Positions 314 through 58,000 of a DNA stretch of 64,000 bases are shown piece after piece. The stretch lies in contig CAMNXA010000009.1 of assembly GCA_946566685.1 (NCBI GenBank), positions 1 to 64,000 on the forward strand, written 5' to 3'. A model generated the notes under the pieces. It was given only the letters and a program-made list of their open reading frames with translations. It searched no databases and was not told the DNA's origin. A program made the position numbers and the translations under genes. Source of the DNA: an uncultured Lachnospiraceae bacterium. Its GTDB lineage: Bacteria > Bacillota > Clostridia > Lachnospirales > Lachnospiraceae. The number at the start of each line of letters is the position of its first letter. Position 1 is the first letter of the stretch.

Positions 314-3300
314 ATGAATATGTGTTGTAATTGGAAGAAGCAGAAGAGGAAACCCTATCTGCGCATGTTGGCAGCAGGACTAAGTTTATGTATACTGCTT
401 ACGGCTTGTCCGAGCATACCGGCAGTGTTTTCTGTTATAGCGGCGGAGAATCAGGCGGAGAGTATGGAGATCACCGCTTTTAAGAAACTGCCTGACAGAG
501 TACGCAGGCAGACGGTTTCCCTGGGGACAGAGATAGAAGAACTGACACTGCCGGATACTCTGGAAGTATCTGTCAGCCTGAAAGACGATGAAAATTCAAG
601 GGGGGGGGCAGAAAGTTCTGAAGGTTCAGGCTCTAAGGACGATGAGAAAACCCCGGATGGAGATGATGATACAGGTGCGGACAAAGAAGGAACATCCGGC
701 GATGGCACAGGCGAGGATGTAGAAGGAAAACCCGGCGAAAACGGCGATGGCACGGATGAAGACGATGACAAGACATCCGGTGAGGACGGTGACGGCGCGG
801 GTGAGAAGGACGATGGTACATCCGGCGAAGGAAGCGGCGATGGCAGCACGGGTGGCAACGGTGAAGAGACATCCGGTGACGGAAGCGGCGATGGCGGCAC
901 AGACGACAACGGTGATGGGGCATCCAGCGAAGGAAGCGGCGATGACAGCACGGATGGCAATGGTGAAGAGACATCCGGTGACGGAAACGGCAACGGCGCG
1001 GACAAAGACACTGCCGCTGTTGACGAAGCGCGTATCAATTACAGTACACAGGGAGCACCTGGCTTTGGTATCAAGACCGGTTCTTTTGCCATGCCTGCGT
1101 ATTTTGGGGAAAACGGACAGGGGGAACTGACCGTAGAGACACTGACAAGCGGCGCACAGCAGGATAAGGAGGCGCAGAGACAGAAAGAGGAATCGTCAGA
1201 ACGAAGCGATATTGAGGAGGTCGCGACAGAGGACATCATCATAGAAGATATCACCTGGGAGTCTGAGCCGGACTATGACAGTAAGACGGAGGGTGTCTAC
1301 ATTTTCACGCCTGTCCTGCCGGAGGATTATACGTTGGCAGAGGATGTCAGTCTGCCTGAGATTGAAGTGACGGTACAGGCGGACATGGAAGAGCAGGTGC
1401 TGACAGCCGCAGGAGAACTTTTGCAGGAGATTCTGGAAAACTATTTTAATGGCATATCTGAGGATGGGATTTACAGAGCTATCCTTTCCATGGACGAGGA
1501 TACGCGTCTGGATCTGACAGCGGACTATGAGGAAGTGCTGGCTGCCATGACCGAGGAAGACGAAGCGGATGAGAGACTGCAATCCATTATGGATGAGATC
1601 CAACGCGGGATCGGGGACGCGGCGGCAAAGATGCCGCTTAGGAAACCTGCGTTTTTAAAAGCCCGCGCCGCCGCGCTGCAGGCAGCTGGCACAATTCCTT
1701 TGAGAAGAATTTCCGGGAGCGGCAATGCGTTCGTATATCATAGCTTCAATGAGACCAAGTCGTTTACTCCGGGAAAGTCTTATGCTTTTTTGAATGGTGT
1801 GTATGGCTACGATGATGCGGTTTCTTCCCTGGGCTCAGGGGCGATTCTGAAAGCCACAGATAGGAGCAATAATTCCATTTTTTATATGCAATGGATATAT
1901 GGATCGTCTGCGGCCGTTAAGGTATATGTGGACGTAGAGACCAGAGGCAGTGATTTTGATGGTTGTGTGATTGGCGGCCTGTATCAGGTACCTGATTCCG
2001 GGACACCTACCGAATACCGATATTTCTGCGGATATGGCGGTGCGCGAAACTGTGGTCCCTACTATGCCTATGATTATGTAAAAGAGAAACTGACCTATAC
2101 AGATGTATCGGCTTCCTTAAATGATATAGAGAAACAGGGATCTACGAATCCGAGTGATTATACTGTTAAAGTTACTTTCGGCGGAAGCCGGAGTATGGTG
2201 CTGGATACCGGAAGTTATACCGTGAGTGTCCCGAATCCTGATTCGGATGAAGTCGATATTATCGTATCGGATAGTGAGAAAAATCAGATCAGGACGAAAT
2301 TTCGGATGCCGCTTGTCGTGAACTATGACGGCAACGGAACAGGCGTGAGTAATGTTCCCACCATACAGCCGGCCTGGAAAGGGGAAAGATTTACGGTCAG
2401 CAGTATGCTGCCTGTACGAAGAGGTTACAGTTTTCTTGGCTGGGAAGACGCACAGACGGGAACAGCTTATATGAAAGGCCAGATAATTTCTTCTTTTGGA
2501 TCAACATCTCTGTGGCTGAAAGCGCAATGGAAGGACATACAGGCTCCGGATGTCGGTTACACGCCAACCCAGGTCATGACGCGTGCCACGGATGCGGAGG
2601 TAAAGGCGGCGGTGGAAGAGGCGCTTACGATCACGGACAATGAACCGGTGGAGGAATGTACTGTTGAGATAACGGTGCCGCCAAACTTTACAGCGACCGC
2701 AGGCGATAAAGACGTTACCGTGAAAGTGACGGATAAGGCGGGCAATGTCACCACAAAAACCTGTACCGTAAGCGTGATGTCTTATGTGGAATTTTCCAAG
2801 CCGGTATTTACGGCGGATACGAAGAACCTGTCCGTGATTCTGCGCAACCCGGGTACGGATCCTGTCACAGAGAGCGGTTTTGTGTGGGGAATCATGAATG
2901 CGCCCAGCATTACCATCAATAACGGGAAAAAGAAAACGGCTTCCCCTGTTGTAAAAGCGGATGGGACAATATCCATCACCGCGGATAATCTGCAAAAGGG
3001 TGTTACTTATTATGCCAGAGCCTATATCATTGCAGACGGCGTGGCTTATTACAGCGATGAGATAGAGATCGGAATCGGATTGCCTGCGTATGGAACCTTT
3101 ACCATTAAGAATAACAGTGATAATACTTTTACGGTTACAAGAAGCGGCGGAAGCGAGGGGGTGCAGACGGTCTATTACCGGACAGTCAATGGATCCGCGG
3201 TGGGCGGTACCCATTTTACCCATCAGGCGGACTCTCTGACTTTTGCGGCAGGGGAGACCGCAAAGACGATTACGGTTACGGAGCAGGGAGTAAATAGGGT

Positions 3301-6300
3301 GTATGGCGGCAAGGCCACTACCGCTTATACCAATGCTGACCGTGTCTATTCCGTAGAATTGTACCGTGTCACGGGAGGCGGTACATTGGGAACCGATGCC
3401 CAGGCGCAGCGGACGATGCAAAAGGGCAGCAGCTATACGGTGGACAGGAATGTCTATCAGGAAAAGGAGAGAAGTGTTTCCACGACTAACGATAATAATA
3501 TTGTTGCAGACAGATCGAGTTCGAACAGACACCAGACTTTTTTTACAAATAACAGGGGCTATAACATGAGCCATCCGCATTTGTATGGCTGTTATGAGAA
3601 TTTTAATGTCAACAGAACGATGGAGGAGTGGAGCGCCAACACGAATGCCTATCTCAAGGCGACAGCAGAGGGGTATTATTATCGGTTGAAATTCACATGC
3701 AGGGAAGATGATGATGGTTATGAACATATCTGGATTGCGGACCATGAGCCCAATAATTTTAACAGTGCAAATGAGCATGATGGCCCGATTAACATAGATG
3801 ATAATCTTTTTGGCCCGGCAAAATACACTGCCCGATGGGAGACAAATGATGGACAAACCGGAACTGTGACTGTTCCGGGTACAAGTGAGCGGAGTAATGT
3901 GTATAGTTTTAACACCGCAATAAGAAGCGGCGCCACAGAAGGGGATTATGTGCTTTTTGGTGTGGAGGATGAGGCAAACATATGGTTTTCGGCAACGGGA
4001 AAAGATACAGACAAATGGCGTGTGGATTCTTATACGGATTGGATTAAGGTCAAGGACGAGAAGGAGCCTCAGCTCGTGGGTGTGTCTCCCATGGCCGGCG
4101 GCACCTACAAGGCGGGAGATTCCTTTACCGTATCACTTATTTTCGATGAGATTGTGGACAGGCAGAACAGCGGTGACCTGAATGGGATTGTGTTAAACAC
4201 AAGCTGGGGACAGGCTAAGTATGTGGGCGGTGCAGATACCAATGTCCTGTATTTTACGGGGCAGATCGTATCAAACGCAGACAGCAGATTGAAAGTCAAC
4301 AGCTTTACGAATGAGAGTCGTATTAAGGACATGTGCGACAGCATAACGAAAACGGCAACTGCAAGCGGCAGCGGTAATACGACCGCTACGGTGGATACCG
4401 CACAGCCGAATTTTACCCTTACGCCGAAAGGAATCTCAGGCGGAACAGGCACCATCAATGTCCTTGTGAACGCGGATCAGACAAAGACAAACGCTCTGCG
4501 CTATGCGTGGTCAGACTCTGCTTCAGCACCGGCAAACGGCTGGGTAGATATGACTGCCTCGGAATTGTCATCGGCCAAGAGCACGGCAGGATGCGCTCTC
4601 TCCATCCGAAAAGAACCGGGCAGCGGCGCAAGCAACGGCAAATGGTATCTCCATGTGATCGGCACATACAACACTACGGGAGCAACCGACTACAAGAACG
4701 CCTGTGTGGATTTCGGTACAATCAGTGCGCCTGCCGCAGGCAGTGAGAAACCGGTGCTTACTGTCAGCACGGATAATTCCGCGTGGGCAACCCAGAGGGC
4801 GATCACCATACAGACGAAGGGCGGTGAGGCGCTGAAATACCGCAGAAGCGGAGAAACTGCATGGAAGACGTTGGCATTGAGTGCGGGCAGTGTCACCGTG
4901 ACGGCAAACGGATATTATACTTTTATGCTTACGGCGGGAGATGATGTCATTACGCGGACCGTACAGGTGGAGAAGATTGACAGGGTGAATCCCACGGCCG
5001 AAGTCGGAGCACTTATAGAAAGCGGAGCGAATCAGACCACAAAGGCGGGCGTATATACGAAAATCACGCTTCCTGTAACTTTTGCGGACAGCGGTTCCGG
5101 TGTGAAAACGGTGCAGTATAAGTGGACAAATACGCAGACCACACCGACAAGCGGCTGGCAGACGCTTCCGGCGAATCAGGTGCAGGCCGGCACAGCGCAG
5201 CTTCTCTATACGGCTGCGGAAAACAGTGAGACCACCAAATATCTGCATCTGAAGGTGACAGATCAGGTGAACCATACCTGTACGGTAAAATCTGCTGCAT
5301 ACAAAGTGATTTCCCAATCGGCGGTGGCAAACCATGCGCCGAAGATCACTCTTACCGGAGCGCCGACCAAGTGGATAAATGATATGGTTACTCTGCAATG
5401 GTCTTTGACTGATCATACAGGGAAAAATTATGAAGTGATTCTGCCGGACGGCAGGAAGGCAAAAAGCAATACCCATGAAGGAAACGTGTGGGCTTCGCGC
5501 AACGGCACCTATACGGTAAAAGTGGTGGATCTGGATTACGGCGGGGAAAGTACGGCCACAGTAGAAGTTACTTATATTGATACAACTGCGCCGACTGTCA
5601 CGCCCTCGTCAGTCTCCGAGGCCTGGCAGACGGGGCAGACGGTTACCTTTACCGCCAGCGACAGCCAAAGCGGTGTTGGGAAAAAGTACTATAAAATTGT
5701 GAATACAAAGGATGAAAAACCTGTGGAAGGTTTGAAAGAACTTACAGCAGACAGTGTGAGCGTATCCCAGGACGGCGTCTGGTATATCTATTATAAGTAT
5801 TATGACAAAGCAGGCGATGACAGCATTGGCAGGGAAAGCAATAGGACGGAAGGCTTTGTCGGTCCCATTAAGATTGATACGGTATCGCCTGTGGCTTCGG
5901 TGAGTGTAGGCGGCACCCCAAATGAACAGACCGGCTGGTATACGGCCGCTGTGCCGGTAACCCTCAGTTTTGAAGATCAGGCAAAGGCAGAGGGCATAGA
6001 ACCCGGCGGCCTGAAATCCGTAGAATATAAGTGGGTGAATACAAAAGCAAAGCCTGTCTCAGGTCTGTCAGCGCTGACGGCGGCGCAGATGGAGGCAGGA
6101 GAATATGTGAATACACAGACCCAGAACGGGATCTGGTATCTGTATTATAAGGTGACGGATCAGGCAGGAAATATGACGGACGGCTTTTCCGAGGAAATCA
6201 GGCTGGATCAGGCAAAAGCTGCGCTTACCGTGACCGGTCCGGATGTGGGGGCACAGAAAGCCGCGGGTCTTGTTTTAACGGCAGCGTCCGGCAGCTTCGG

Positions 6301-9300
6301 CCCAAGCGGCGGTGTGCTTTCCGTGAAGAAGGACGGACAGTGGACGGAGACAACGCTTCAGGAAAGTACGGGAAGCGGTAGTTTATCGAAGGCATATTCC
6401 GTAACAGAACCGGGAACTTATTATTTTTACAGCCGTACCAATGCTGACAAAGCAGATGGGGCGGCGGTAAGCCAGACCCGGTATGTGCATCAGGTAACTT
6501 TTGAGAGTAATAAGGGCAGCGAGGTGGCGCCTCAGCTTGTGTGGACTTCCCAGGCAGATGAAAACGCGGGAGATATTTCCGGATCTTCGAACAGCCTGGT
6601 CGAGTGTAAGGTGCTAAAGCCGGCGGATCCCAGCCGCAGGGGAATGATCTTTGGAGGCTGGTATACGGACAGGGAATGCGGGGACGCGGATGCCTTTGAT
6701 TTCAACACACAACTCTATGAGGATATCACACTCTATGCCAAGTGGACAGCGGTTTCCTATGGGGTGACATACTATCTGACAAACCCGGACGGCAGTGCTT
6801 ATGAAGCCGAGACGTCCGATAAAAACTATACTTTTGGCGAGGGACTGGCCTTGCCGGAGCCGAAGCAGGAGGGATATCGGTTTGACGGCTGGTATCTGTC
6901 AGATACCTATACAGGAGATACAAAGACGGCAATCGAAGAGGACGAGACGGAAGCGAAGACATACTATGGCCGCTACGTGGATATCATGGATCCTCAGATT
7001 GCGGCACAGCTGTCGGCGGAGAGCGCAGAGAGCGGCTGGTATACCACAAAGCCTGTGATCAACCTGACCTATTCTGATAATCACGGCGTGGAAAAAATCC
7101 TGGTCTGCGTGGACGGGGGAGAATGGCAGGAACTGAGCGGGTTCCCCAAAGGCAGCGGGACGAAAGACGAGACGGTGCGGACATGGGCTTTCACGGCATT
7201 GCAGCAGGGAGACCATACCTATACTTTTCGGGCAGAGGATGCGGCAGGGTTGTCAGCCACGACAGATGAAGTTCGGGTAAAACTGGACACTGTGCAGCCG
7301 GATCTGGGAGCGGTCTCTTATAATGAAGGTTATGTAAACCTGTGGAATTGGATTATCCGCAAGGACAGTCTGCTTGTCAATATCCCGGTGACGGAGGAAG
7401 AAAGCGGGCTTGAGAAGGTGGTCTATACACTGACGCCCGGCAGTATGGGGAATCAGGAGCCGGTCACGAAAGAGGCGAAGATAGAGAAAACAAAGACGGA
7501 TGCCGGAACCATTTATACGGCAGTTATCACTATCGATCCGGATTATAAGGGTGTGATCGGGGATATTCAGGCAGTGGATGCTGCCGGCAATGTGTCGGAG
7601 ACAAAGGATGTCTATGCAAATGGCATCGGGGTGATCGTGGAAGAGGAAAAACCCGTGATCACTGTGACGGCTGACCGTCTTCCCACACAGGACCAGGCTG
7701 GCACAAAGCCGGAGGGAGAAGCGCTTTCTGAGGCTTATTACCAGACAGCACCGGAACTTTTGATAAGGGTGCAGGACGGATCAATTGCTGCTTCCGGCAT
7801 AAAAGAAGTGAAATGGCGGATTGGCAGCGGCAGTGAAAATACGGAGAATGGCGGGTTCGCGGATGCGCTGAAAACGGAATATGGATTCCAGATTGCATTG
7901 AACGGATATTCCGGCACGGCGCAGGTGACAATCCTTGCCGCAGACAACGCGGGTAATAGCGAAACCAAGACGGTGACGATAAAGATCAGGGGAAAAGAGC
8001 AGAAACCGAATGCGAAACCTGACTATCCCACAGAAAAACTGACAGGACTCTTGCCAAACGCTGACTATGTGATTCAGATGCAGGACGGTATGGAACTTTC
8101 AACAAAGGCCGATGCACAGGGACAGATTGTAATAGAGGACGGCTGGTTTGGCACGGAGATTTCCGTGATCAAGAAAGGCGATGGCGTAAATACCGAAGAC
8201 AGTAATCCCCAGACACTTGTGCTGGCGGCACGGCCTGATGCGCCGAGTCTCGGCAAGATGGATGAGACAATTAAGGGAAAGAAAGACGGTCAGGTCACAG
8301 GAGTGACATCCGCCATGGAGTACAGCACAGACAGCGGCAGAACATGGACAAAAGCGGACGGAACTCTTTCTGACACTGCGCCCGGAGAGGTGTGGGTGCG
8401 CGTGGCGGTGACGGCGGCTGCGCCTTATGGCAAGACAGCAAAAGTGACGATCGGGGAAGGCAGGACCCTTACGGTGACTTTCAATTCCCAGGGAGGCAGT
8501 GAGGTCGCTCCTGTGACGGGACTGTCGTGGAAAGAAGCGGTTACCAGGCCGGCTGATCCCACAAAAGAGGGTGACAACACCTTTGTAGGATGGTATAAGG
8601 AATCAGCAGGTAATAATAAATGGCATTTTGCCTCGGAACAGGGAGCGGATTTACTGACGGGCGATGTGACTCTCTTTGCGAAATGGCTTCCGAGGGCGAA
8701 TGCGCCGATCGTTGTGGGAATCTCTTATAGAAACGAGTTGCTGACGGAACTTGAGGCAGGAGCAGCTTATCTGATCGGTGGGAAAGAGGTCACTGCTTCG
8801 GCGGATGGCACTGTGCCGATTGAGGAAGACTGGTTTGGACAAACCATTGGCATAATCCGAAGAGGAGATGAAATAAATACCGGTGACAGCAAGGCGCTGC
8901 TTTTGCCTGTGCCTGACCGTCCGACAGGGCCGGAAAAGGTAGCTGCAAGGGGTGAGAGTGCACAGGGCAGAGGGGATGGTGTATTGACCGGTCTTGACAG
9001 CACGATGCAGTATCGCAGGGCGGGCAGTACGGAATGGCTTTCTGTCACCGTGACAGAACTTTCCAATCTGGAACCGGGTAATTATGAACTGCGTTATGTT
9101 TCAACAGACACGGTATTTTATTCAAAGATTGTGACCAGAACAATTAACTCATACAGTCCCCACAAGGATTCTGGAGGCGGGAAGAAAGAGGAAGACAGCG
9201 ATGGTTTCATCGAGGAAACGCCGGAAGGAGATGGCACAGAGCCGGAAATGGCTGTAAAACCCGGTGAAGGTGAAAATCCCAAAAATAATCAATTATCCGA

Positions 9301-10288
9301 AGATGATAAACAGCCGGATGCCCGTGACAATGTGATACAGTCGGTAAAGGCGGACAGGGATTTGAAACCGGGAGATGGAAAGAAACCGGGAAATGGAAAG
9401 AAACCGACAGCCGGGACAGGGTCAGCCGGCGGTGTGGGATCAACAGCCGGCGGTATTACAGGCAGCGGACATACCGTAGTGGATGACAGGATTGTGTTAA
9501 AGTCCGAGACTGATGCCGGTGCGGCAGGACAAAATGATACAGGAAGTACTGCGGACAGTATCGGCCGGGATGGGTATCCTTATGCGGTGGGCAAGACAGT
9601 GGAGACTCTGAACATTCCCGTGGATCAGGGTGCGGTGGTTGTGACCGTCAACAATAAGAATAAAAATTTATGTACGGCCCAGGCGGCAGATGCTGTGGCC
9701 GTGGCAAACGCGGTCTTGTCGAAAGAGGAAATAAACCTGGTGTCCAAGGGGGAGACCATAGAGATCCGTATTGATGTGGAGCGGATTGACGAGTTGGTGG
9801 ATGAGGACGAAAAGGCACTGATCGAGAGGGAGACAGCAGGTACCGGTAAGGAAGATTCCGGTCTGATCATAGGCATGTATGTGGATATTTCCATGTTTAT
9901 ACGGCAGGGAGAAGGCGAGTGGAATGCTGTCCATGAGACCAACGAACCGGTGGAGATCATTATCGATGTGCCGGAGGAACTGCGGACACTTAGCGCGGAG
10001 TTTTACATAGTGCGGGCCCATGAGGGAGAGTGCAGCCTGCTTCCGGATCTGGACGAGACGGCAGAGACCATCACCATTATGACAGAGCGTTTTTCGACTT
10101 ATGCGATTGCGTATCGATTGACGGAAGGTGCGGACGGCGGTGGTAAGTGCAGTTTATGCCATATCTGCCCGACTTTCCTTGGAATCTGTTACTTTGTCTG
10201 GCTGGCGGTGATTTTGGCCATTGGTTTTGTGGTAATCATTCTTCTGCGCAGGAAAGAGGAAGAGAAGACGCAGGAGGAAGGGAAGTAA
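314..10288 (+). CDS. Giant multidomain surface protein 1 (InlB-like repeats, C-terminal Cys motif and membrane anchor)
   Basis: This is a predicted secreted, membrane-anchored protein of 3,324 residues. I chose ATG 314 because GGAGG at 301-305 is well placed and a signal peptide follows directly (basic start, hydrophobic core, likely cleavage near residue 44 after IAA). Residues 94-232 are an Asp/Gly/Ser/Glu-rich linker of degenerate repeats. InlB B-repeat-like units (GWY, AKW endings) lie near residues 669-740, 2061-2220 and 2718-2792. A Calx-beta-like segment is near 925-995, and many Ig-like modules with VDT/IDT-x-x-P starts lie between. The last about 190 residues match giant protein 2 and end in CSLCHICPTFLGIC (Cys 3279 onward), a hydrophobic helix and a KEEEK-type basic/acidic tail. 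There is no LPXTG signal. A 9-G tract at 600-608 is in frame. The role is probably adhesion or a surface stalk; the ligand is unknown. Confidence 0.85.
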   Translation: MNMCCNWKKQKRKPYLRMLAAGLSLCILLTACPSIPAVFSVIAAENQAESMEITAFKKLPDRVRRQTVSLGTEIEELTLPDTLEVSVSLKDDENSRGGAESSEGSGSKDDEKTPDGDDDTGADKEGTSGDGTGEDVEGKPGENGDGTDEDDDKTSGEDGDGAGEKDDGTSGEGSGDGSTGGNGEETSGDGSGDGGTDDNGDGASSEGSGDDSTDGNGEETSGDGNGNGADKDTAAVDEARINYSTQGAPGFGIKTGSFAMPAYFGENGQGELTVETLTSGAQQDKEAQRQKEESSERSDIEEVATEDIIIEDITWESEPDYDSKTEGVYIFTPVLPEDYTLAEDVSLPEIEVTVQADMEEQVLTAAGELLQEILENYFNGISEDGIYRAILSMDEDTRLDLTADYEEVLAAMTEEDEADERLQSIMDEIQRGIGDAAAKMPLRKPAFLKARAAALQAAGTIPLRRISGSGNAFVYHSFNETKSFTPGKSYAFLNGVYGYDDAVSSLGSGAILKATDRSNNSIFYMQWIYGSSAAVKVYVDVETRGSDFDGCVIGGLYQVPDSGTPTEYRYFCGYGGARNCGPYYAYDYVKEKLTYTDVSASLNDIEKQGSTNPSDYTVKVTFGGSRSMVLDTGSYTVSVPNPDSDEVDIIVSDSEKNQIRTKFRMPLVVNYDGNGTGVSNVPTIQPAWKGERFTVSSMLPVRRGYSFLGWEDAQTGTAYMKGQIISSFGSTSLWLKAQWKDIQAPDVGYTPTQVMTRATDAEVKAAVEEALTITDNEPVEECTVEITVPPNFTATAGDKDVTVKVTDKAGNVTTKTCTVSVMSYVEFSKPVFTADTKNLSVILRNPGTDPVTESGFVWGIMNAPSITINNGKKKTASPVVKADGTISITADNLQKGVTYYARAYIIADGVAYYSDEIEIGIGLPAYGTFTIKNNSDNTFTVTRSGGSEGVQTVYYRTVNGSAVGGTHFTHQADSLTFAAGETAKTITVTEQGVNRVYGGKATTAYTNADRVYSVELYRVTGGGTLGTDAQAQRTMQKGSSYTVDRNVYQEKERSVSTTNDNNIVADRSSSNRHQTFFTNNRGYNMSHPHLYGCYENFNVNRTMEEWSANTNAYLKATAEGYYYRLKFTCREDDDGYEHIWIADHEPNNFNSANEHDGPINIDDNLFGPAKYTARWETNDGQTGTVTVPGTSERSNVYSFNTAIRSGATEGDYVLFGVEDEANIWFSATGKDTDKWRVDSYTDWIKVKDEKEPQLVGVSPMAGGTYKAGDSFTVSLIFDEIVDRQNSGDLNGIVLNTSWGQAKYVGGADTNVLYFTGQIVSNADSRLKVNSFTNESRIKDMCDSITKTATASGSGNTTATVDTAQPNFTLTPKGISGGTGTINVLVNADQTKTNALRYAWSDSASAPANGWVDMTASELSSAKSTAGCALSIRKEPGSGASNGKWYLHVIGTYNTTGATDYKNACVDFGTISAPAAGSEKPVLTVSTDNSAWATQRAITIQTKGGEALKYRRSGETAWKTLALSAGSVTVTANGYYTFMLTAGDDVITRTVQVEKIDRVNPTAEVGALIESGANQTTKAGVYTKITLPVTFADSGSGVKTVQYKWTNTQTTPTSGWQTLPANQVQAGTAQLLYTAAENSETTKYLHLKVTDQVNHTCTVKSAAYKVISQSAVANHAPKITLTGAPTKWINDMVTLQWSLTDHTGKNYEVILPDGRKAKSNTHEGNVWASRNGTYTVKVVDLDYGGESTATVEVTYIDTTAPTVTPSSVSEAWQTGQTVTFTASDSQSGVGKKYYKIVNTKDEKPVEGLKELTADSVSVSQDGVWYIYYKYYDKAGDDSIGRESNRTEGFVGPIKIDTVSPVASVSVGGTPNEQTGWYTAAVPVTLSFEDQAKAEGIEPGGLKSVEYKWVNTKAKPVSGLSALTAAQMEAGEYVNTQTQNGIWYLYYKVTDQAGNMTDGFSEEIRLDQAKAALTVTGPDVGAQKAAGLVLTAASGSFGPSGGVLSVKKDGQWTETTLQESTGSGSLSKAYSVTEPGTYYFYSRTNADKADGAAVSQTRYVHQVTFESNKGSEVAPQLVWTSQADENAGDISGSSNSLVECKVLKPADPSRRGMIFGGWYTDRECGDADAFDFNTQLYEDITLYAKWTAVSYGVTYYLTNPDGSAYEAETSDKNYTFGEGLALPEPKQEGYRFDGWYLSDTYTGDTKTAIEEDETEAKTYYGRYVDIMDPQIAAQLSAESAESGWYTTKPVINLTYSDNHGVEKILVCVDGGEWQELSGFPKGSGTKDETVRTWAFTALQQGDHTYTFRAEDAAGLSATTDEVRVKLDTVQPDLGAVSYNEGYVNLWNWIIRKDSLLVNIPVTEEESGLEKVVYTLTPGSMGNQEPVTKEAKIEKTKTDAGTIYTAVITIDPDYKGVIGDIQAVDAAGNVSETKDVYANGIGVIVEEEKPVITVTADRLPTQDQAGTKPEGEALSEAYYQTAPELLIRVQDGSIAASGIKEVKWRIGSGSENTENGGFADALKTEYGFQIALNGYSGTAQVTILAADNAGNSETKTVTIKIRGKEQKPNAKPDYPTEKLTGLLPNADYVIQMQDGMELSTKADAQGQIVIEDGWFGTEISVIKKGDGVNTEDSNPQTLVLAARPDAPSLGKMDETIKGKKDGQVTGVTSAMEYSTDSGRTWTKADGTLSDTAPGEVWVRVAVTAAAPYGKTAKVTIGEGRTLTVTFNSQGGSEVAPVTGLSWKEAVTRPADPTKEGDNTFVGWYKESAGNNKWHFASEQGADLLTGDVTLFAKWLPRANAPIVVGISYRNELLTELEAGAAYLIGGKEVTASADGTVPIEEDWFGQTIGIIRRGDEINTGDSKALLLPVPDRPTGPEKVAARGESAQGRGDGVLTGLDSTMQYRRAGSTEWLSVTVTELSNLEPGNYELRYVSTDTVFYSKIVTRTINSYSPHKDSGGGKKEEDSDGFIEETPEGDGTEPEMAVKPGEGENPKNNQLSEDDKQPDARDNVIQSVKADRDLKPGDGKKPGNGKKPTAGTGSAGGVGSTAGGITGSGHTVVDDRIVLKSETDAGAAGQNDTGSTADSIGRDGYPYAVGKTVETLNIPVDQGAVVVTVNNKNKNLCTAQAADAVAVANAVLSKEEINLVSKGETIEIRIDVERIDELVDEDEKALIERETAGTGKEDSGLIIGMYVDISMFIRQGEGEWNAVHETNEPVEIIIDVPEELRTLSAEFYIVRAHEGECSLLPDLDETAETITIMTERFSTYAIAYRLTEGADGGGKCSLCHICPTFLGICYFVWLAVILAIGFVVIILLRRKEEEKTQEEGK
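600..608 (+). repeat. In-frame poly-G tract (9 Gs) in giant gene 1
   Basis: Nine consecutive Gs form codons AGG GGG GGG G(CA) around residues 96-99, just before the acidic linker. The tract is in frame here, so the gene reads as ON. Loss or gain of one G would shift the frame; one shifted frame closes at 1130. Such tracts are classic slipped-strand contingency sites, but variation cannot be seen from a single sequence. Confidence 0.7.
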
Positions 10289-10313
10289 TCATAAAGGCAG
10301 TAAGATTCATAAC

Positions 10314-10342: not shown

Positions 10343-10347
10343 GTTTC

Positions 10348-46888: not shown

Positions 46889-46931
46889 GGATATTCTTAG
46901 AGTTATGGATGAAACGTCAGAAAAAGGGATG

Positions 46932-46960: not shown

Positions 46961-46988
46961 TGGGAAGAATGGAGGAATCGGGGATACA

Positions 46989-47913: not shown

Positions 47914-47923
47914 ATAGTTAAAA

Positions 47924-48060: not shown

Positions 48061-48097
48061 ATAAAATGGAGTCTGATAAAGGAGCATAGCACAGTAT

Positions 48098-48507
48098 ATG
48101 GAGATACAACAGGGATATTCTTATCATATTAAAGATGATTTTTTTGATATGGTCCAGGATAAGTATTTGATGAGCAATAAGGAAAATGGGAATTACCGTC
48201 CGCATTTTTATGCAATACAGGACAAGAAGAATGATTCTCTTTATTGGATGATTCCCATAAGTTCGCAAGTAGATAAATACAAGGTAATTGTAGAAAAAAA
48301 GAAAAAGAAATTATTGCAAAATTTTTTGATCATATACACACGGTTGAAAATAAACCGATAAAAGTACATAATGAATTGAACAGGATTCTTACAGCAAATT
48401 TAAGGGAAGTACTTGCAATGTATAACCGTGGAATTAATTTGATATATACAGATATTACTAAAATTAGAGCGATTATGGAACAAGAATTAGAAGGTATAGA
48501 ACATTAA
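48098..48507 (+). pseudogene. CptN/ToxN-like type III toxin, broken
   Basis: ATG 48098 opens MEIQQGYSYHIKDDFFDMVQ and continues with NYRPHFYAIQDKK and YWMIPISSQVDKYK, which fit the N-terminal half of ToxN/CptN-type endoribonucleases. After VEKKKKK the frame changes; the tail FDHIHTVENKPIKVHNELNR, then REVLAMYNRGINLIYTD, runs to the stop at 48505-48507 in another frame. A central deletion plus frameshift is likely. The CptIN call rests on architecture and remembered family resemblance, not on a search. The gene lies between a response regulator and its kinase. Confidence 0.6.
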
Positions 48508-48534
48508 TGATTCTATTGCTTGTAGAGGTGTAAC

Positions 48535-49593: not shown

Positions 49594-49656
49594 GTTACGA
49601 CAGGGAAATGTAAGCCAGATGCATGGCAGGACATTTCCTTTTTATTTATGATATAG

Positions 49657-49728
49657 GAAAGTGCTTCGGATTTACGAGGCTGCGAAGCAGATCTCGCAAG
49701 GTTAATTCCGAAGGAATTTACCTTTTTT
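49657..49728 (+). repeat. REP-like double-hairpin element (copy D)
   Basis: The element starts GAAAGTGCTT, has a GAGGCTGC-GAA-GCAGATCTC hairpin with compensating changes relative to other copies (CTGC/GCAG against CCGC/GCGG), then an AATTCC-GAA-GGAATT hairpin and TTTTTTT. Compensating stem changes show the folded form is maintained. It lies between the kinase and ATPase genes and could attenuate transcription. Confidence 0.7.
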
Positions 49729-49755
49729 TATTGATTTCATCAGAAGGAGGATTTT

Positions 49756-50529
49756 ATGTCATTGCTGACAGTGAAAAACGTTAAGAAAATATATACCACC
49801 CGCTTTGGTGCTGTTAAGGTACAGGCTTTAAACGATGTGAATTTTTCCGTGGAGGAAGGGGAGTATGTGGCCATCATGGGCGAGTCTGGTTCCGGTAAGA
49901 CCACCCTCTTAAATATTCTGGCCTCCCTGGATGCGGCTACCAGCGGACAGGTACTGCTAAACGGCCAGGAACTTTCCAGAGTCAGTCAGAAAGACCTGTG
50001 CGCGTTCAGACGAGATCACCTGGGCTTTGTATTCCAGGACTTTAATCTGCTGGATACCATGTCCCTGCGGGATAACATTTTCCTGCCTCTGGTGTTGGCG
50101 GGCGTACCTTACCGGGAGATGGAGGAGCGGCTTGCACCCCTTGCCCGTAAATTAGCGATCAACGACCTGCTGGATAAATATCCCTACGAAGTGTCCGGCG
50201 GGCAGAAACAGCGGGCGGCAGTATGCAGGGCTTTGATTACGAGGCCGGATATTGTGCTGGCGGACGAGCCCACAGGAGCGCTGGACTCCAGGGCCTCCGG
50301 AAAACTTCTGGGACTATTTGGGGAGATCAATGCAGAAGGCCAGACCATTCTCATGGTGACCCATAGCATTCAGGCGGCGGCTCATGCGGGACGGGTGCTC
50401 TTTATCAAAGATGGCTGTGTGTTCCATCAGATTTACAGGGGCGACCATGACCGGGATGAGATGTATCGGATGATATCAGATGCGCTGACCGTGATGCAGG
50501 CACAGCAGAATGGAGGCGAGCATGAATAA
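49756..50529 (+). CDS. BceA-like ABC transporter ATP-binding protein
   Basis: A 257-residue ATPase with Walker A GESGSGKTT, Q-loop FVFQDFNLLD, signature VSGGQKQRAAVCRA, Walker B IVLADEPTGALDS and His switch MVTHS. GGAGG precedes the ATG. Its last 8 bases overlap the permease start. By family and context it energises a Bce-type transporter that frees lipid II-cycle intermediates from bacitracin-like or lantibiotic peptides. Confidence 0.93.
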   Translation: MSLLTVKNVKKIYTTRFGAVKVQALNDVNFSVEEGEYVAIMGESGSGKTTLLNILASLDAATSGQVLLNGQELSRVSQKDLCAFRRDHLGFVFQDFNLLDTMSLRDNIFLPLVLAGVPYREMEERLAPLARKLAINDLLDKYPYEVSGGQKQRAAVCRALITRPDIVLADEPTGALDSRASGKLLGLFGEINAEGQTILMVTHSIQAAAHAGRVLFIKDGCVFHQIYRGDHDRDEMYRMISDALTVMQAQQNGGEHE

Positions 50530-52528
50530 GATGAAATTACTGCCCGTCATGGCATATAGAGGAGTCAGGCAGAATCAGCTGGTCTACAGGCCGTACCTGC
50601 TGACCTGTTTCTTTTCCGTATTCAGTTACTATCTTTTTTCCTCCCTTCTGCACAATGACCTGATGGAGAGACTGCCAAAGGCGGCCTATGCATGGATAAT
50701 GTTAGATCTCGGCAAGGGACTGCTTTCCATCATTCTGCTGTTGTTCCTGCTCTATGCGGGCAGTTTCTTACAGAAGAGAAGGAAGCGGGAACTGGGACTC
50801 TACAGCCTGCTGGGATTGGAGAGAAAACATATCGGCATCATGCTTTTCTGGGAAAATGCCGGACTCTATCTGGTCAGTGTCTCTACGGGTATCATACTGG
50901 GATTTGTGCTGAACAAACTGATGTTCCTGCTGTTACTACGTATGTCGCGGCTCGATGTGGAGGTGGCATTTTACTTTTCCATGGAGGCGGTCATGGAGAC
51001 GCTCCGGTATTTTGCGCTGGTGTTTGTGTGTGTTTATGGTAAAAGTCTCTGGGGATTTTATCGGCTGAAGCCCACCGAACTGATGGCAGAGAGCAAGAAG
51101 GGGGAACGGGAAGTAAAGCATATCTGGCTGTGGGCTGTGATCGGAGTGATGACGCTGGTGTGGGGTTACTATATCTCTGTCACCAGCAAACTGGACAGTA
51201 TGATCTTTACGGACTTTTTCCTGGCGGTATTTCTGGTGATACTGGGGACTTACTTCCTGTTCACTTCCGGAAGCGTGGCTTTCTTAAGATTTTTAAAAGC
51301 AAGAAAAGGCATTTACTATAGGCCGGCCAACCAGGTGACAATCTCCGGCATGTTGTACCGCATGAAAAAGAACGCAGCGGGACTGTCTAATATCTGTATC
51401 TTTTCTACCATGCTTCTGATCACATTGACTTGTACGGTCACTTTGTGGGTGGGGATGGATCAGATTGCTGATTATGATTATCCCTATGATTTGCAGGCGG
51501 CTTATTCGGAGCACAGTGATGTGACCGATAAGGCCGGGAAGAAGGCGGAGGAACTTTCGGCAAAATATGGGCAGGGGATAGACAGACTGGACTATTACAA
51601 TGTTCTGGAACTTGTCTGTGGTAAGCCGGAGGGAAGCAATACCTTTATGTCAGCTGGGGATTTTGCCTTTGCCGACCAGTACGGTGTCAATCTGATGACG
51701 CTTGCTGACTATAACCGTCTGGAAGGACAGCATCAGAGTTTAGAAGAGGGAGAAGTGCTCCTATATACTACGGGAACAGTGTTTGGTTTTGATAAGGTGG
51801 ATTTTATGGGGATAGAAGCATCCATCAAAGAGGAACCGGAGAGTATCTATCCTTATCCTCAGGCCAAGAATCGGATGTTTGATTTTACTTCGCAGTATGT
51901 GTTGGTGGTAAAGGACGAAGAGGCATTGACCAGGTTTGCAACGGCCTGGGCACAGACCAACGGCGTCACGGATTTAGAGGACTTTCTGCACAGAGGGGTG
52001 CGGTATCTGTGTCTGCGGCTTACGGGGGAGGAATCCGAGAGGGATGCCTTTATAGAAGAATGGTCAGAGTGGTGCCAGGGGCAGCAGGATTTCCAGCGTC
52101 TGGAAAATGGACTGGAGGGAAGGGATGAGGACCGCTCCATGAACGGCGGCCTGCTCTTTATCGGCCTGGTCTTCGGTATCCTGTTCTTTATGTGCCTGCT
52201 GCTCATCATGTATTTCCGGCAGGTGTCGGAAGGATATGAGGATCAGAACAGTTTTGAGATTATGCAGAAGGTGGGCATGAGTGACAGTGAGATCAGAAGT
52301 ACCATCCACAGGCAGATCCTGCTGGTGTTCTTCCTGCCTCTTGCGGGCGCGCTTTTGCACACGGCCGCCGGGCTGGTGATGGTCAATGGCCTGCTGGCGG
52401 TTCTGCGGTTCTTTGATACCGGGCTATTGATTCGTTGCTGTCTGGGTGTGGCGGCAGTTGTGGCAATTCTGTATGCGGGCAGTTATCTGATGACGGCGCA
52501 GACTTATTATCGGATTGTGAGGAAGTGA
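50522..52528 (+). CDS. BceB-like FtsX-family ABC permease
   Basis: A 668-residue permease with the BceB layout: an N-terminal helix group (about ten helices in all), KRRKRELGLYSLLGLERKHI as the coupling motif near residue 83, and a large outer domain between later helices (about residues 310-540). ATG 50522 overlaps the ATPase stop. With the kinase it should form the sensory complex for peptide antibiotics. Confidence 0.9.
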   Translation: MNKMKLLPVMAYRGVRQNQLVYRPYLLTCFFSVFSYYLFSSLLHNDLMERLPKAAYAWIMLDLGKGLLSIILLLFLLYAGSFLQKRRKRELGLYSLLGLERKHIGIMLFWENAGLYLVSVSTGIILGFVLNKLMFLLLLRMSRLDVEVAFYFSMEAVMETLRYFALVFVCVYGKSLWGFYRLKPTELMAESKKGEREVKHIWLWAVIGVMTLVWGYYISVTSKLDSMIFTDFFLAVFLVILGTYFLFTSGSVAFLRFLKARKGIYYRPANQVTISGMLYRMKKNAAGLSNICIFSTMLLITLTCTVTLWVGMDQIADYDYPYDLQAAYSEHSDVTDKAGKKAEELSAKYGQGIDRLDYYNVLELVCGKPEGSNTFMSAGDFAFADQYGVNLMTLADYNRLEGQHQSLEEGEVLLYTTGTVFGFDKVDFMGIEASIKEEPESIYPYPQAKNRMFDFTSQYVLVVKDEEALTRFATAWAQTNGVTDLEDFLHRGVRYLCLRLTGEESERDAFIEEWSEWCQGQQDFQRLENGLEGRDEDRSMNGGLLFIGLVFGILFFMCLLLIMYFRQVSEGYEDQNSFEIMQKVGMSDSEIRSTIHRQILLVFFLPLAGALLHTAAGLVMVNGLLAVLRFFDTGLLIRCCLGVAAVVAILYAGSYLMTAQTYYRIVRK

Positions 52529-52556
52529 ATCGGATAGAGAGCAGGTAGATTTAAAA

Positions 52557-52590
52557 TGCTAAGCTACAGAGTTTTCCCTGTGGCTTAGCA
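52557..52590. terminator. Bidirectional hairpin between bceB-like and peptidase genes
   Basis: TGCTAAGC-t-ACAG pairs with CTGT-g-GCTTAGCA around a short loop. The minus-strand side runs into TTTTAAA, better for ending the opposing peptidase gene; the plus side has little T content. Confidence 0.6.
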
Positions 52591-52644
52591 CTGATTGTAT
52601 AAATGTATTTAAATAAACCACCTGCCAAGCAGGCAATGCTGATT

Positions 52645-53385
52645 TTAGTATCTGGTAATTATGTTGTTGCCGGATTCCAGCAGACGAGCCCTTGATATCG
52701 TTCTTCCCCAATGAACGGAAGAATTATAATTACCCTCAGCTACAGTAATGGTATCCGCGTTTACCTCCAACACGATTACGGAATGGGTATCATTGTCCAT
52801 CCGCACGATATCCCCAACCCTGATATTATTAAAGTCTGAATGCATCTTGGCGGAGGCGTTTCCGAAAGCCGCATCGCTCAAAGCAAACGCAAATCCTGCA
52901 CAGCCATAACCGCCGGAGTAAATCCCGCCATTCCATGGCACAAAATTTTCATTTGTCCAACTCATTCCTTCTGGAAATACATCTTTCTGCGCAATCAGCG
53001 CGTTATAGATATTAGGATTTACGTCTGCCGCAGGCACCGCTTCGGGAACAGCAGGTGCAGTCGGTGCAGGAGCAGGCGAGGGTGCGGACTGTGCCGCAGA
53101 AGACGGCTGGCTTAAGCCAATTCCCGGGATATAGAGTACTTGACCAGCCAAGTCAATTCTAAAATACCCATTATCAGTGACACCCGTAACCAGAATCGGA
53201 AGTCCCGGATCCACTTTCGGAAGCAGCAGTGTCTGCCCATCAGCATCTGTATAAACTGCGGTGGCATTATTGGTATAGAGTACACCACTCACATCGGTAA
53301 CCTTATGTTCTGCCGCCGATACAGGCAGTCCCATAACAATTACGCCCAACAGGACTCCCGCAAGATATTTAATAGATTTTCTCAT
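52645..53385 (-). CDS. Secreted SH3-like plus papain-fold cysteine hydrolase-like protein
   Basis: A 246-residue exported protein. Residues 1-24 are a signal peptide ending VSAAE. Residues about 30-95 look like an SH3-type domain, followed by a Pro/Ala/Ser linker (about 92-122). The C-terminal domain has GGYGCAGFAFALSD with a likely nucleophile Cys, THSVIVLEV with a His, and AEGNYN, the layout of CHAP/NlpC-type amidases. A cell-wall or muropeptide hydrolase role is plausible. It has no close partner; the Rpn gene upstream is on the same strand but about 95 bases away. Confidence 0.7.
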   Translation of the reverse strand: MRKSIKYLAGVLLGVIVMGLPVSAAEHKVTDVSGVLYTNNATAVYTDADGQTLLLPKVDPGLPILVTGVTDNGYFRIDLAGQVLYIPGIGLSQPSSAAQSAPSPAPAPTAPAVPEAVPAADVNPNIYNALIAQKDVFPEGMSWTNENFVPWNGGIYSGGYGCAGFAFALSDAAFGNASAKMHSDFNNIRVGDIVRMDNDTHSVIVLEVNADTITVAEGNYNSSVHWGRTISRARLLESGNNIITRY

Positions 53386-53479
53386 TTTTTAGTTCCCCCA
53401 TCTTTTTAATTTTTGTATAAGAAAGTACTCTATATTTTAAGATTAAGAATAAAATATTTCAATAAGTTTCGCAATTTAA

Positions 53480-54454
53480 TCAGGAAATTTCCGAATATTT
53501 TTTGATTAACTTTTGGCGATAGTCACGGTCATTGAGGACGCGGGTGACCTCCTCGGTTTTTCCGGCTTCGGTCAGGGATTGAAGTAGTTTGGCAAGATTA
53601 TCACTGCCTGTTTCGATCCCTTCCTCGCGTCCAGCAGCAATTCCTTCCTCACGTCCAATAGCAATTCCTTCCTCATGTCCTTCCCGATAACCAATCTTGT
53701 GCCATTCCTTCCGTTCACTCCTCATATGTTTCTCTTCATCATATTCAAAAATACTCACCGCTATCGCCTCCGCCCGATTCTTTGTCAAAAAATCTGAAAG
53801 GATACCATTTTTGATACAATCATCCACCGCTTTTTCAACGGCTTCCGACAAGGGTAATTCTTCTGCAAAAGTCCTGACCAGTGCTACATACTGTGCGTAT
53901 TCTTTTAACAGGTGGCATGCTTCCAACAGCCCATGATTATGTCCAAGATTGATATTATACACAATCACTGACAGTTCCAGGGAAGGTTCATCCTGTTTCT
54001 TTTCAAAAGCGTCCGAGAGATATAATATCTGCTGTTCAGGTTGAAAGTCCGTTCCATTAAAGAATACGACAAATCTGGGTGCCGGAATTTTGATGAGAGA
54101 TTTACTGTAGAGATTTTCATCCTTAACCCGGTTCTGCAACACCCTGGTCACATAGAGCAGGTCACGCAATGGCATGTTAGGATTGCATGTGGACTGGTGT
54201 TCATAGAGCATCAGTTCAAAATCAAATACAAAGGAAATGTCATTCTTATAATTCATATAGACTGCATTTTCCAGTGTGGTAATCTCTAGTTTGTCTGTCT
54301 CTTCGTAAACAGTGCCGTTCAGTGCATTGTACAGACTCAGCAGATTGTCTTTTTCCCGGAAGAGCATCCTAAATACGGTATCTTTGTAGTTGCGCTGTAC
54401 CTTGATTTGGTTCTGGTTTGATTCATTAGTTTCGATTGTTTTTGTCTCGTTCAT
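53480..54454 (-). CDS. Rpn family recombination-promoting nuclease/putative transposase, copy 1
   Basis: A 324-residue PD-(D/E)XK nuclease of the Rpn/DUF4351-like group. The N-terminal motif KDTVFRMLFREKDNLLSLYN is typical; catalytic-type residues lie in FVFDFELMLYEHQS and in PRFVVFFNGTD. The C-terminus has three 8-residue repeats (GHEEGIAI, GREEGIAA, GREEGIET) before a coiled tail. AAGGAGG precedes the ATG at 54454. It is nearly identical to the copy at 62482 apart from repeat number. Rpn proteins cut DNA and promote RecA-independent recombination in E. coli; a link to defence has been reported for some. It is divergent from giant gene 2. Confidence 0.88.
   Translation of the reverse strand: MNETKTIETNESNQNQIKVQRNYKDTVFRMLFREKDNLLSLYNALNGTVYEETDKLEITTLENAVYMNYKNDISFVFDFELMLYEHQSTCNPNMPLRDLLYVTRVLQNRVKDENLYSKSLIKIPAPRFVVFFNGTDFQPEQQILYLSDAFEKKQDEPSLELSVIVYNINLGHNHGLLEACHLLKEYAQYVALVRTFAEELPLSEAVEKAVDDCIKNGILSDFLTKNRAEAIAVSIFEYDEEKHMRSERKEWHKIGYREGHEEGIAIGREEGIAAGREEGIETGSDNLAKLLQSLTEAGKTEEVTRVLNDRDYRQKLIKKYSEIS
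53615..53686 (-). repeat. 24-bp tandem repeats in Rpn copy 1
   Basis: Three 24-bp units encode GHEEGIAI-GREEGIAA-GREEGIET. The paralogue at 62482 has only one such unit (around 62620-62645). The difference points to slippage or recombination in this short region. Confidence 0.75.
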
Positions 54455-54627
54455 TTGTGTCCTCCTTAATGATACCCAGCAGACATTCCATATAAGAGGC
54501 TGACTGCCGCTACAGGAGAACCGCTCCAGATCCTCCTGCCTTTACAATGGTTAATGGGATGCAAAGCATGGATTTTCTGAAACTTAGAATAAAAATAGAG
54601 AATATTGATTTGTTAATTGTTAAGTAG

Positions 54628-54674
54628 AAAATATGCTTTTTCATACTATAGCATATTTTAAACGGAATTGTAAA
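54628..54674 (-). promoter_or_regulatory. Promoter of Rpn copy 1 with inverted repeat
   Basis: On the minus strand TTTACA (54669-54674) and TATAGT (54645-54650) are 18 bp apart. AAAATATGC (54628-54636) pairs with GCATATTTT (54651-54659) so the -10 lies in the loop, suited to an operator. The same array occurs at 63584-63630. Confidence 0.6.
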
Positions 54675-54803
54675 TATATTTTGTGCAATTTTTAAATATA
54701 ATATTTTTTGTACCATGTATATTAACGATTCCATAAAAACGACAGCGCAGAAAACCATATAAACCAAATAGACCCAAAGCATACAAAGTTATTTAAACTA
54801 AAA

Positions 54804-54872
54804 ATGCAAAGTATACCGTTAAAAATGCAATCTGTACCATTTCAATAGTAAAATGACATATTTCAATATAAA
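54804..54872 (+). promoter_or_regulatory. Paired 21-bp-spaced boxes and promoter of giant gene 2
   Basis: TGCAA-N4-TACC motifs have TACC at 54814-54817 and 54835-54838, 21 bp apart. A -10-like TATAAA is at 54867-54872, 32 bp after the second TACC. The downstream leader has a 20-bp-period repeat (TTTCAATA then AAAATGAC) at 54840-54880 and two 15-bp tandem units AAAGATTTCGAAAGA at 54903-54932. The ATG follows at 55005. Confidence 0.55.
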
Positions 54873-55004
54873 ATGACCATTACATACATAATTTTATTTT
54901 CTAAAGATTTCGAAAGAAAAGATTTCGAAAGAAAAAAGAGAGAAAGATTGACATAAAATGCACAGCGACCGCCAAAACAGACGGCGGCTTATGGGAGGAA
55001 CAGG

Positions 55005-58000
55005 ATGACTGAACAACGTGTATGGTTAAAATCAAGAAAAAAGAGTTATCTGCGTGTATTGGCGGGAATGCTCAGTTTGGGTGTGCTGCTCACAGCAAAT
55101 CCCAACATTGTGGCAGCACTATCTGTCTTTGCGGCGGAAGAATCAGAAGGGGAAAGCAGACAGTATGTATCAGGTTTTGCCGTACTGCCGGAGGATATCA
55201 GGGAACAGTCGGTATCGCTTGGGGGGGGGGTGGACGAGTTGTCCCTGCCGGATACGCTGGAGGCGGTCGTTACCAGAAAGGGCAATGAGGATATACCCGA
55301 AGAGGATGACGACCAGGCAGATGATGCCCAAAAGGATGACGGCGGCTTAAACACCGGAGAGATAACGGATGAGGATAAAGCCGGTTTGGACAAAAATAAC
55401 GGTGAAAATGGCGGGGATGGGAGCGACAGTTCTGACGAAACTGACGGTGAAAACGGCAGAGGTGAGAACGACAATACGGACGAGGCCGGAAATCAAACCG
55501 GCGATGATGATAACGGCAGTATGGACGAGGCCGGGGATCAAAAGGGCAAAGATGATAACGATAGTACGGACGAAGCCAGAGACGAGAACGACAAAGATAA
55601 GAATCATAGCACCAATGAAAATGATGATGAAAACAGCCAGGATGAAAATAATAACCCTGGCGAAATTGCAGTTGAGCAGAGTCAAGTTAAGGAAGCAGTT
55701 TCAGATGCCACAGGGTGGAATGAAATCAATGCCACAGACAGCATAAAAATAAAATCGGAAAAAACAGGACTCAGACAGGAAACCCATACCGTTACCATTC
55801 CGGAATATCAGGCGGAAAACATTGTGACGGTAGAAGAGAAGGTTTACGCAAAAGATGACGAAGAGACGATTCTCATAGAAGGTGTCACCTGGCACAGCGA
55901 ACCGGACTATGATGAAAATACGGTAGGAGTTTATCTTTTTACAGCGTCTCTGCCGGAAGAGTACGACCTGGCGGAGGGCGTCAGCCTGCCCAAAATCCGG
56001 GTGACGGTGGGAGAGAACATCCTGCTCTTTATAGAACGCGCCGAAGCCCTGCCGGCTCTGGAGGCTATGCTGGATGACGCTCCAGGCGAGGAGGAAGAAG
56101 GGTACGAAGCGTGGGAAGAGCGCTTTTTGGAAGCGGTCTCTGAGGCGGAGGCTTTAAGGAAAGAGTATGACGCTTTTACGGAGGCGGAACAGGCACAGAT
56201 ACCGGAAGAAATCTATACGAATCTTGTGGCATGGTGGGAGTATGCCCGGATGATGGAGGAGACGGATTTATATGCGGAGCCACCCGCATGGGGCGGAACC
56301 GGCTATGCGCCTGTCAGGGGGTGGGGAAATGAGTTGCATAATAAAAACGCAGTTTATGCGCTGGGAAACAATCTTACCCTTAAGGCAGGAGAGGGGGATA
56401 AAACGAAGGTATTTTATACCGGCTCTGCTACGCCTATTGATCTGGCCAATTTAGGGGAGATTAGTAGTAAGTCCGGTATCAACTATTCCTTTCAGGGAGA
56501 CGGAGATGTAGACAGCGGTTTTGATTTGACAGATTCCGGTGTGGTTGCCACATGGTCGGGAGACTATTACGGCTATCAGGATGAAGAAACGGGAACTGGA
56601 GACTATGGAGAATTAGTAGATGTTTTTAAAAATATGGATGTAAAAATTCATATAGAAGGGGGAACACTGTTAGGATTATCTAATGTATCCCCACGAAAGA
56701 ATAATCCTAACAGCGCTACTCTTTATATGACAGGCGGAACGTGGCTTGGAGGCGATGGGGTAGACAATGCTATTAGGGCAAACGCAGCATATGTATCCGG
56801 CGGATGTATGAAGGGTCCCATCAAGATTTGGTTTGGGCTTTATCTCTCCGGTTCCCCAATCATCGGTGAGGAAGGCGGAGGACTATGGATGAGCAGCGGG
56901 AGTAAGTTCTATCTGGACGGACCGCTCTCGTCCGGTGCAGAGATTTACATCAATCCGCAGGCGGATTTTGCCGATGGTTCGGTGGTCGCGGAGGGCTCCG
57001 GCTATACGATAACGGAGTCAGATTTGGCGTATCTTCATCTGACAGGAGATAACATAGGGAACAGAGAACTAAAACTCGTAAATAATCAGATTCTCCTGGT
57101 CGCCCATACCCATACCTTATCCTATGCCGCAAGCGGGGCGGTCATCACGGAGACATGTGCGGATAACTGCGGCCACTCCGCCACAGCCACCCTTTCTGTC
57201 AAGAGCGGTGAGGATCTGACCTACACCGGGAGCGCGCTCAAACCGGCCACCGTTACTTACAGTGACAACTGGGCGGGAACCGGTACGGATCGGCCGGACG
57301 ATACAAAGATTCAGTATACCGATAACACCAATGCCGGAACCGCCACGGCCAAACTGACCATCGGCGGCAGGACGGCGGCTGTCACCTTTGAAATTACGAA
57401 GGCGGATATGGCGGGCGTAACGGCGAGTGGTTACACAGGCACTTATGATGCGGCGGCCCATGGGATTACGGTGAATGCTCCCGCAGGAGCGACCGTGAAA
57501 TACAGGGAAACGGCATCCGGGAACTATACGCTGACTGCCAATCCTGGCTATACCAATATCGGCACGTATACCGTGTATTATCAAATAACAAGAGAGAATT
57601 ATAATACCGTGACGGGATCTGCACAGGTAAAGATTGATGCCCGTAACATAAGCGGTGCAACGGTCACCCTGGATGGCACGGCTTTGACCTACACAGGGTT
57701 AGAACAGACAAAGGGAATAAACAGTGTCACCATTACGGCGGGCGCAAAGACACTGACCCTGGCCGAAGGAACGGATTACGCCATAAGCGGCAACAAGGGG
57801 ACAGCCGCCGGAACTTATACAATGACCCTTACGGGAAAGGGCAACTATACCGGCATCAGGACGGCAGCTTTTCAGATTGTACCCAAAACGCTGACAGACA
57901 GCATGGTAGTCGTACCTGCCGGGCCGCACTATTATACCGGCAGTGTCATCACACCTGCTGTGACGGTCAAAGACGGTATTTATACTCTGACCAAAGACAC

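Follow-up and report, generated by a model that had tools for sequence, protein, structure and literature searches.

Contingency loci built on poly-G tracts are a known kind of genetic switch and are best known from pathogens. Campylobacter jejuni NCTC11168 is described as carrying 29 poly-G/poly-C phase-variable loci with tracts of 7 or more bases (PMC4965091), and Helicobacter canadensis as having 29 annotated homopolymeric tract regions (PMC2823697). The capsule of Akkermansia is switched by invertible DNA, with long mononucleotide repeats at an acyltransferase gene named as a possible extra mechanism (PMC13343947), and a survey of homopolymers in 99 genomes reports that poly-A and poly-T of 3-7 bases, not poly-G or poly-C, are overrepresented in most of them (PMC2831843). 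Such loci were not found for Lachnospiraceae among the listed titles and abstract openings of open-access papers on repeat and homopolymer phase variation. In this report, G tracts in giant surface-protein genes of a gut commensal Lachnospiraceae bacterium are described. The stretch of DNA analyzed, referred to as the window, consists of positions 1-64000 of contig C9 (CAMNXA010000009.1) of a draft genome of 3.9 Mb and 115 contigs, and it holds two complete giant genes (genes 1 and 2) and the start of a third (gene 3).

The G tracts of genes 1 and 2 are likely, with a probability of about 0.83, to be contingency loci, that is, hypermutable homopolymers that give ON/OFF phase variation. This mode of switching had been suggested in an earlier note on this DNA, and it is now supported by the two-humped distribution of G-run lengths in the genome, by the presence in this genome of about seven genes whose frame is broken at a tract, by matching sites in sister species that differ in tract length and are in opposite frames, and by purifying selection past the frameshift. 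Slippage would be the mutational step, and reversibility within a clone, a switching rate and a benefit are presumed along with it. The features of the window are the following:

314..10288, + strand: giant gene 1, 3324 residues, open reading frame from the ATG at 314 to the stop at 10288, with Pfam matches; ON at the present tract length
600..608, + strand: G9 tract of gene 1, in frame, 10-11 residues past LPDTLE
619..621, + strand: first stop past the tract in one alternative frame of gene 1
720..722, + strand: first stop past the tract in the other alternative frame of gene 1
55005..62441, + strand: giant gene 2, 2478 residues, from the open reading frame, Pfam and N-terminal alignment; ON at the present tract length
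55221..55230, + strand: G10 tract of gene 2, in frame, in SLG-GG-V where relatives have LGT-x-L
55286..55288, + strand: first stop past the tract in one alternative frame of gene 2
55348..55350, + strand: first stop past the tract in the other alternative frame of gene 2
63887..64000, + strand: start of giant gene 3, 1190 residues in full, which continues past the window

Both tracts lie in frame, behind an N-terminus that resembles a signal peptide and ahead of an acidic linker, in agreement with the earlier note. The open reading frame and Pfam matches of gene 1 give a protein with List_Bact/Flg_new, Calx-beta and Ig-like domains and a C-terminal transmembrane segment behind these N-terminal parts; gene 2 belongs to the same N-terminal family and has a YDG domain. 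The alternative frames of gene 2 close at 55288 and 55350 as had been proposed. For gene 1 a closure at 1130 had been proposed, which is a later stop in one of the two alternative frames; the first stops of these are at 619-621 and 720-722. In genes 1 and 2 alike, each of the two shifted frames therefore ends within 39 codons past the tract. The third giant gene, to which the earlier note had pointed, was followed past the window and has an in-frame G10 tract at contig position 64525-64534, a third site distinct from those of genes 1 and 2.

Several other features of these genes were observed. The proteins of genes 1 and 2 (ends at 10288 and 62441) share a similar C-terminal Cys-rich segment, C-x2-C-x2-CPTFLGIC, followed by a hydrophobic helix and a basic tail, and no LPXTG motif was found in the last 220 residues of either. 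Within a single reading frame, gene 3 (L010:8887-12459) combines Big_2 and InlB-type repeats with a C-terminal sortase domain, and a full-length relative, 62% identical, is present in another genome (G028:C5). The contig start (window 1-102) contains a T run and, upstream of gene 1, a C8 run at 95-102, possibly an assembly edge or an upstream tract. A promoter scan of positions 1-620 gave 2 promoter-like sites with 1.3 expected, and no inference is therefore drawn from them.

Exact G-run lengths were counted on both strands of the whole genome. There are 161 runs of length 6, 5 of length 7, 6 of length 8, and 27 of length 9 or more, the last comprising 4 of 9, 16 of 10, 4 of 11, and single runs of 12, 14, and 21. 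The fall to 5 at length 7 followed by the rise to 16 at length 10 is unlike random sequence. Geometric extrapolation from the 161 runs of length 6 predicts 0.8-3.7 runs of 10 or more, the range depending on the assumed step, and 23 were seen. The genome has five giant-family genes, and three have a tract, compared to 0.23 expected (a post hoc test).

The tracts could instead be neutral, being nothing other than GGG codons of flexible glycine linkers that have no regulatory role. This explanation is very improbable. It accommodates the position of several tracts, which in genes 1 and 2 and the solute-binding lipoproteins lie in low-complexity linkers that follow the signal peptide, and the tract of gene 2 has the same length as the corresponding GGGGACAGGG of its ortholog. 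However, GGG is a minority glycine codon in these genes (49/339 in gene 1, 54/257 in gene 2, and 30/121 in gene 3), the longest G run of each gene other than the tract is 5, runs of 7-8 are rarer in the genome than runs of 10, and enzyme genes are split by tracts as well. The objection that GGG codons are used so freely that long runs would be common, which the earlier note had anticipated, therefore does not apply to genes 1-3.

The tracts elsewhere in the genome point to ON/OFF phase variation. A fixed rule was used to class 26 of them (the 27 without the tract at 600): 11 lie within one open frame, 6 split a gene across two frames, 3 are at the 3' end of a gene, and 6 fall outside genes of the G strand. 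A further in-frame case is the tract at 600. The rule is rough, as C12:39983, ON by the rule, is OFF by eye: it splits a lipoprotein-like gene, with no Pfam match, and leaves the signal peptide in the other of the two frames. The 6 split genes together with this one bring the genes of this genome that are OFF at the tract to about seven. By Pfam, the genes with tracts encode FkbM methyltransferases (4), MBOAT proteins (2), solute-binding proteins (2), and a CotH protein (1), which with the three giant surface-protein genes (gene 3 having Big_2 and a C-terminal sortase domain) account for 12 of the 27 tracts. The remaining tracts are elsewhere, including a radical SAM gene (1), a LytTR response regulator gene with the tract at its end, unnamed genes, and intergenic positions. 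The FkbM and MBOAT proteins presumably act on surface glycans. Among the in-gene tracts, G on the coding strand predominates.

To follow the giant family across the genus, a profile built from the N-termini of genes 1, 2, and 3 (A1) was searched in 77 genomes. The 62 matches listed, in 40 of the 77 genomes, include one second piece of the same gene and so represent 61 genes. Counting runs of G9 or longer, in-gene tracts are present in 13 of the 61, own three included; 9 are in frame and 4 are out of frame at the tract. Three pairs of matching sites differ in length and in frame. G028:C19 has G10 in frame with 2205 codons open beyond it, and G084:C24 has G11 and is OFF with 2270 codons open in another frame. 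G062:C23 has G10 in frame, and its counterpart G083:C20 has G12 and is OFF with 1615 codons open in another frame. In the third pair G003:C67 is in frame to the contig edge with G11 and G025:C14 is OFF with G10, the bases past the tract being nearly identical. Length differences with opposite frames were seen between species only, at these three pairs and at one radical SAM pair.

The earlier note had argued that the tracts are not at homologous positions and arose separately. The first statement holds for genes 1, 2, and 3 among themselves, the tract of gene 2 lying where relatives have LGT, earlier in the protein than the gene 1 site. It does not hold for gene 1 across the genus, as a tract 10-11 residues past LPDTLE is also found in G033:C4 (G9), G003:C67 (G11), and G025:C14 (G10). 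A gene close to the first of these (G093:C18) has one Gly codon fewer at this site, and two long relatives of gene 1 (G025:C31 and G062:C2) carry their G run not inside but upstream of the gene, that of G025:C31 adjoining an N gap. A separate origin is accordingly backed by gene 2, whose tract is missing from its nearest ortholog, and weakened by the gene 1 site that is common to other species. Directly behind the gene 2 tract (window 55221-55430), identity to this ortholog (G084:C4) is 60, 60, and 57 of 60, compared to 47-55 of 60 before the tract. The jump looks as though recombination had taken place near the tract.

Enzyme genes split by tracts were examined for frame and selection. The radical SAM gene, which has G10, is OFF here. 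Its counterpart in G092, 93% identical, is in frame and has GAG9 at this site, a difference that goes beyond the number of Gs. MBOAT genes with the tract OFF occur in G000 (2), G092, G017, G020, and G005; the last four were chosen for short frames among 18 MBOAT relatives, and these OFF states therefore give no frequency. Beyond the frameshift, the ratio of nonsynonymous to synonymous substitution rates (dN/dS) is 0.18 for the giant pair (2186 codons), 0.086 for radical SAM (299 codons), and 0.117 for MBOAT (422 codons, both copies OFF); before it, the ratio is 0.115 for the giant pair and 0.053 for radical SAM. These ratios indicate that purifying selection persists past the frameshift and that the OFF alleles are not decaying pseudogenes. 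Being averages, they show that the OFF state is not old and do not show reversion.

Long poly-G runs are a genus-level trait. In 37 genomes of the genus there are 162 exact G10 runs and 256 exact G7 runs; the 24 genomes examined from the order's other families have 41 and 548, and 29 of the 41 come from G053 alone. The G10 count is equal to or greater than the G7 count in 14/37 genomes of the genus versus 1/24 of the other families, and 8/37 genus genomes hold no G10 run. Many genomes of this one Lachnospiraceae genus seem to carry several poly-G loci each, up to 27 in the own genome. Among 41 exact-G10 tracts of six relatives, 11 are ON, 9 are OFF, 3 have a long frame downstream only, 3 are at a gene end, and 15 are in no gene. 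The 16 exact-G10 tracts of G034, which is taken as an isolate genome, are divided into 4 in frame, 3 split, 1 with a downstream frame only, 1 at a gene end, and 7 in no gene. Four tracts that are ON by the rule (L148, L173, L175, and L179) were treated as 5' regions by eye, with their flanks already seen.

In the proposed mechanism, slipped-strand mispairing at replication would add or remove Gs. A change in length that is not a multiple of three would shift the frame and bring a stop about 3-39 codons later. Only an N-terminus would be left, which the stop positions put at about 94-135 residues, and the surface protein of 2500-3300 residues would not be made. A later slip may restore the full-length surface protein. 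With up to 27 runs, many of them in surface-protein or likely glycan-modifying genes, cells with different surfaces would coexist in a population, and the benefit could be escape from phage or host antibodies or altered adhesion. Loss of mismatch repair was rejected as the cause since mutS and mutL are present. Slippage could instead occur during transcription or on the ribosome, in which case one DNA length would give a mixture of products and the frame of the DNA would not decide expression. Polymerase slippage on Buchnera poly-A tracts is mentioned in the homopolymer survey (PMC2831843), and simple DNA slippage leaves the conserved flank described below unexplained. The DNA lengths differ between matching sites, however, and this explanation is very unlikely, although such slippage could coexist with phase variation.

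A number of observations weigh against phase variation at these tracts. Both mutS and mutL are full-length and intact, and single-base slips may therefore be rare and rates modest. The nearest ortholog of gene 2 (81% identical over 1911 aligned residues) is without a tract and has the GGGGACAGGG mentioned above at equal length. Two of the six genes in the giant pairs (G025:C14 and G062:C23) are interrupted by a nonsense codon some 300 codons farther along, and these may therefore be dying genes or contain errors. Among the 48 giant-family genes that have no tract, at least 4 are also short (205, 48, 267, and 274 codons), and the upstream pieces of the MBOAT genes give a dN/dS of 0.53 over 79 codons. 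The majority of the relatives are metagenome-assembled genomes (Lachnospiraceae, Clostridiales). A G21 run lies in frame inside truA, the housekeeping gene for tRNA pseudouridine synthase (C46:13455-13475; L017:7456), and is probably an artefact, and the G15 of one relative, beside an N gap, looks artefactual. The last three points, together with tracts near contig ends such as C24:42, would also fit a more general explanation, that homopolymers miscalled in draft assemblies create both the tracts and the frameshifts. This is nevertheless very improbable: assemblies made independently, and with diverged flanks, show tracts at the same sites, the presumed isolate G034 has 16 exact G10 runs, and there is no surplus of runs of 7-8. 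Some of the called tract lengths may still contain single-G errors.

The bases that surround the tracts were compared in 84 tracts chosen regardless of flank (27 own and 57 from seven relatives). The positions after the tract favour TARAA: T at +1 (64 of the 84), A at +2 (61), A or G at +3 (64), A at +4 (55), and A at +5 (45). An AT-rich block is found at about -3 to -10 before the tract; window 589-614 and L010:9514-9540 are examples of such flanks. In the own genome the +1 base is T in 17/27. In a subset of 78 tracts, most positions between -8 and +6, and some farther out, are biased beyond the 99% null, and the bias is present in 46 curated coding tracts (some mutually homologous and hence non-independent) as well as in 31 noncoding tracts. 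The 77 genus genomes have 178 copies of the string G9-TARAA, spread over 62 of them, with the own genome contributing 1, and 4 copies of its mirror. The corresponding numbers are 15 versus 2 in 54 other genera of the family and 14 versus 8 in 83 genomes of other families, where G053 holds 7 of the 14 and no mirror. Viral contigs have G10-TAAAA in at least 120 stretches and the mirror in 74, from which little can be inferred because the first total is only a lower bound. A flank profile, derived from the same tracts that it scored, gives 5.2 for gene 1, 6.2 for gene 3, and a weak 0.75 for gene 2 (tract median 5.4, control median -5.2).

Several origins of this flank were considered and rejected. 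It is not a property of any G run, as 308 control runs of 5-6 are biased only at -2, -1, and +1, and it is not common to long G runs in every clade, as 20 tracts of G053, from another family, do not have it as a group (+1 T in 4/20). A hairpin between the flanks was discounted, since cross-tract pairing is no better than in shuffled sequence (78 tracts, z -1.2 to 1.6, eight offsets). Selection for stop codons does not explain it in full: a stop triplet follows immediately in 24/46 curated coding tracts, and the A at +4 (37/46) and the A block before the tract are left over. A general role as a promoter spacer was also set aside, as TTGACA before the tract is not in excess in the genus (46 coding and 31 noncoding tracts), although three loci in other genera of the family that were chosen for TARAA (L439, L440, and L445) resemble TTGACA-spacer-TARAAT promoters. 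Stop triplets, promoter -10 boxes, and a slippage-prone context may each contribute.

It is conceivable, if doubtful, that the tract is a directional DNA element, consisting of an AT-rich block about 3-10 bases before, G9-12, and TARAA, that occurs in genes in different codon phases and between genes across one Lachnospiraceae genus. If so, a dedicated context or factor would make or maintain hypermutable runs despite mismatch repair.

Two further arrangements were observed in relatives. In L148 and L179 (G033:C21 and G034:C34) a G10 run lies immediately before TATAAT and a ribosome-binding-like site, followed by a GntR regulator gene, which is promoter-spacer-like. In L170 (G015:C2) a G10 run lies shortly upstream of a gene with a flagellin N-terminal domain.

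If phase variation at these tracts is confirmed, scoring these genes as present or absent in gut Firmicutes would overlook that surface proteins and glycan-modifying enzymes are also switched ON and OFF at random. Such switching is a form of bet-hedging, and it could be traced in existing metagenome reads.

The tracts described here resemble those of C. jejuni in that there are many G9-11 tracts per genome, a number of them in genes for likely surface structures, with ON or OFF decided by frame. They differ in that they belong to Lachnospiraceae with intact mutS and mutL, in that giant multidomain surface proteins are involved, and in the shared directional flank, a comparison in which only the Lachnospiraceae tracts were analyzed. 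As in H. canadensis, there is a genome-wide set of homopolymers with translational and possibly transcriptional switching; the phylum is different, and here G on the coding strand prevails among in-gene tracts. Akkermansia is likewise a gut commensal with phase variation of surface structures, but inversion is the demonstrated switch in that organism, and homopolymer length would be the switch in this one.

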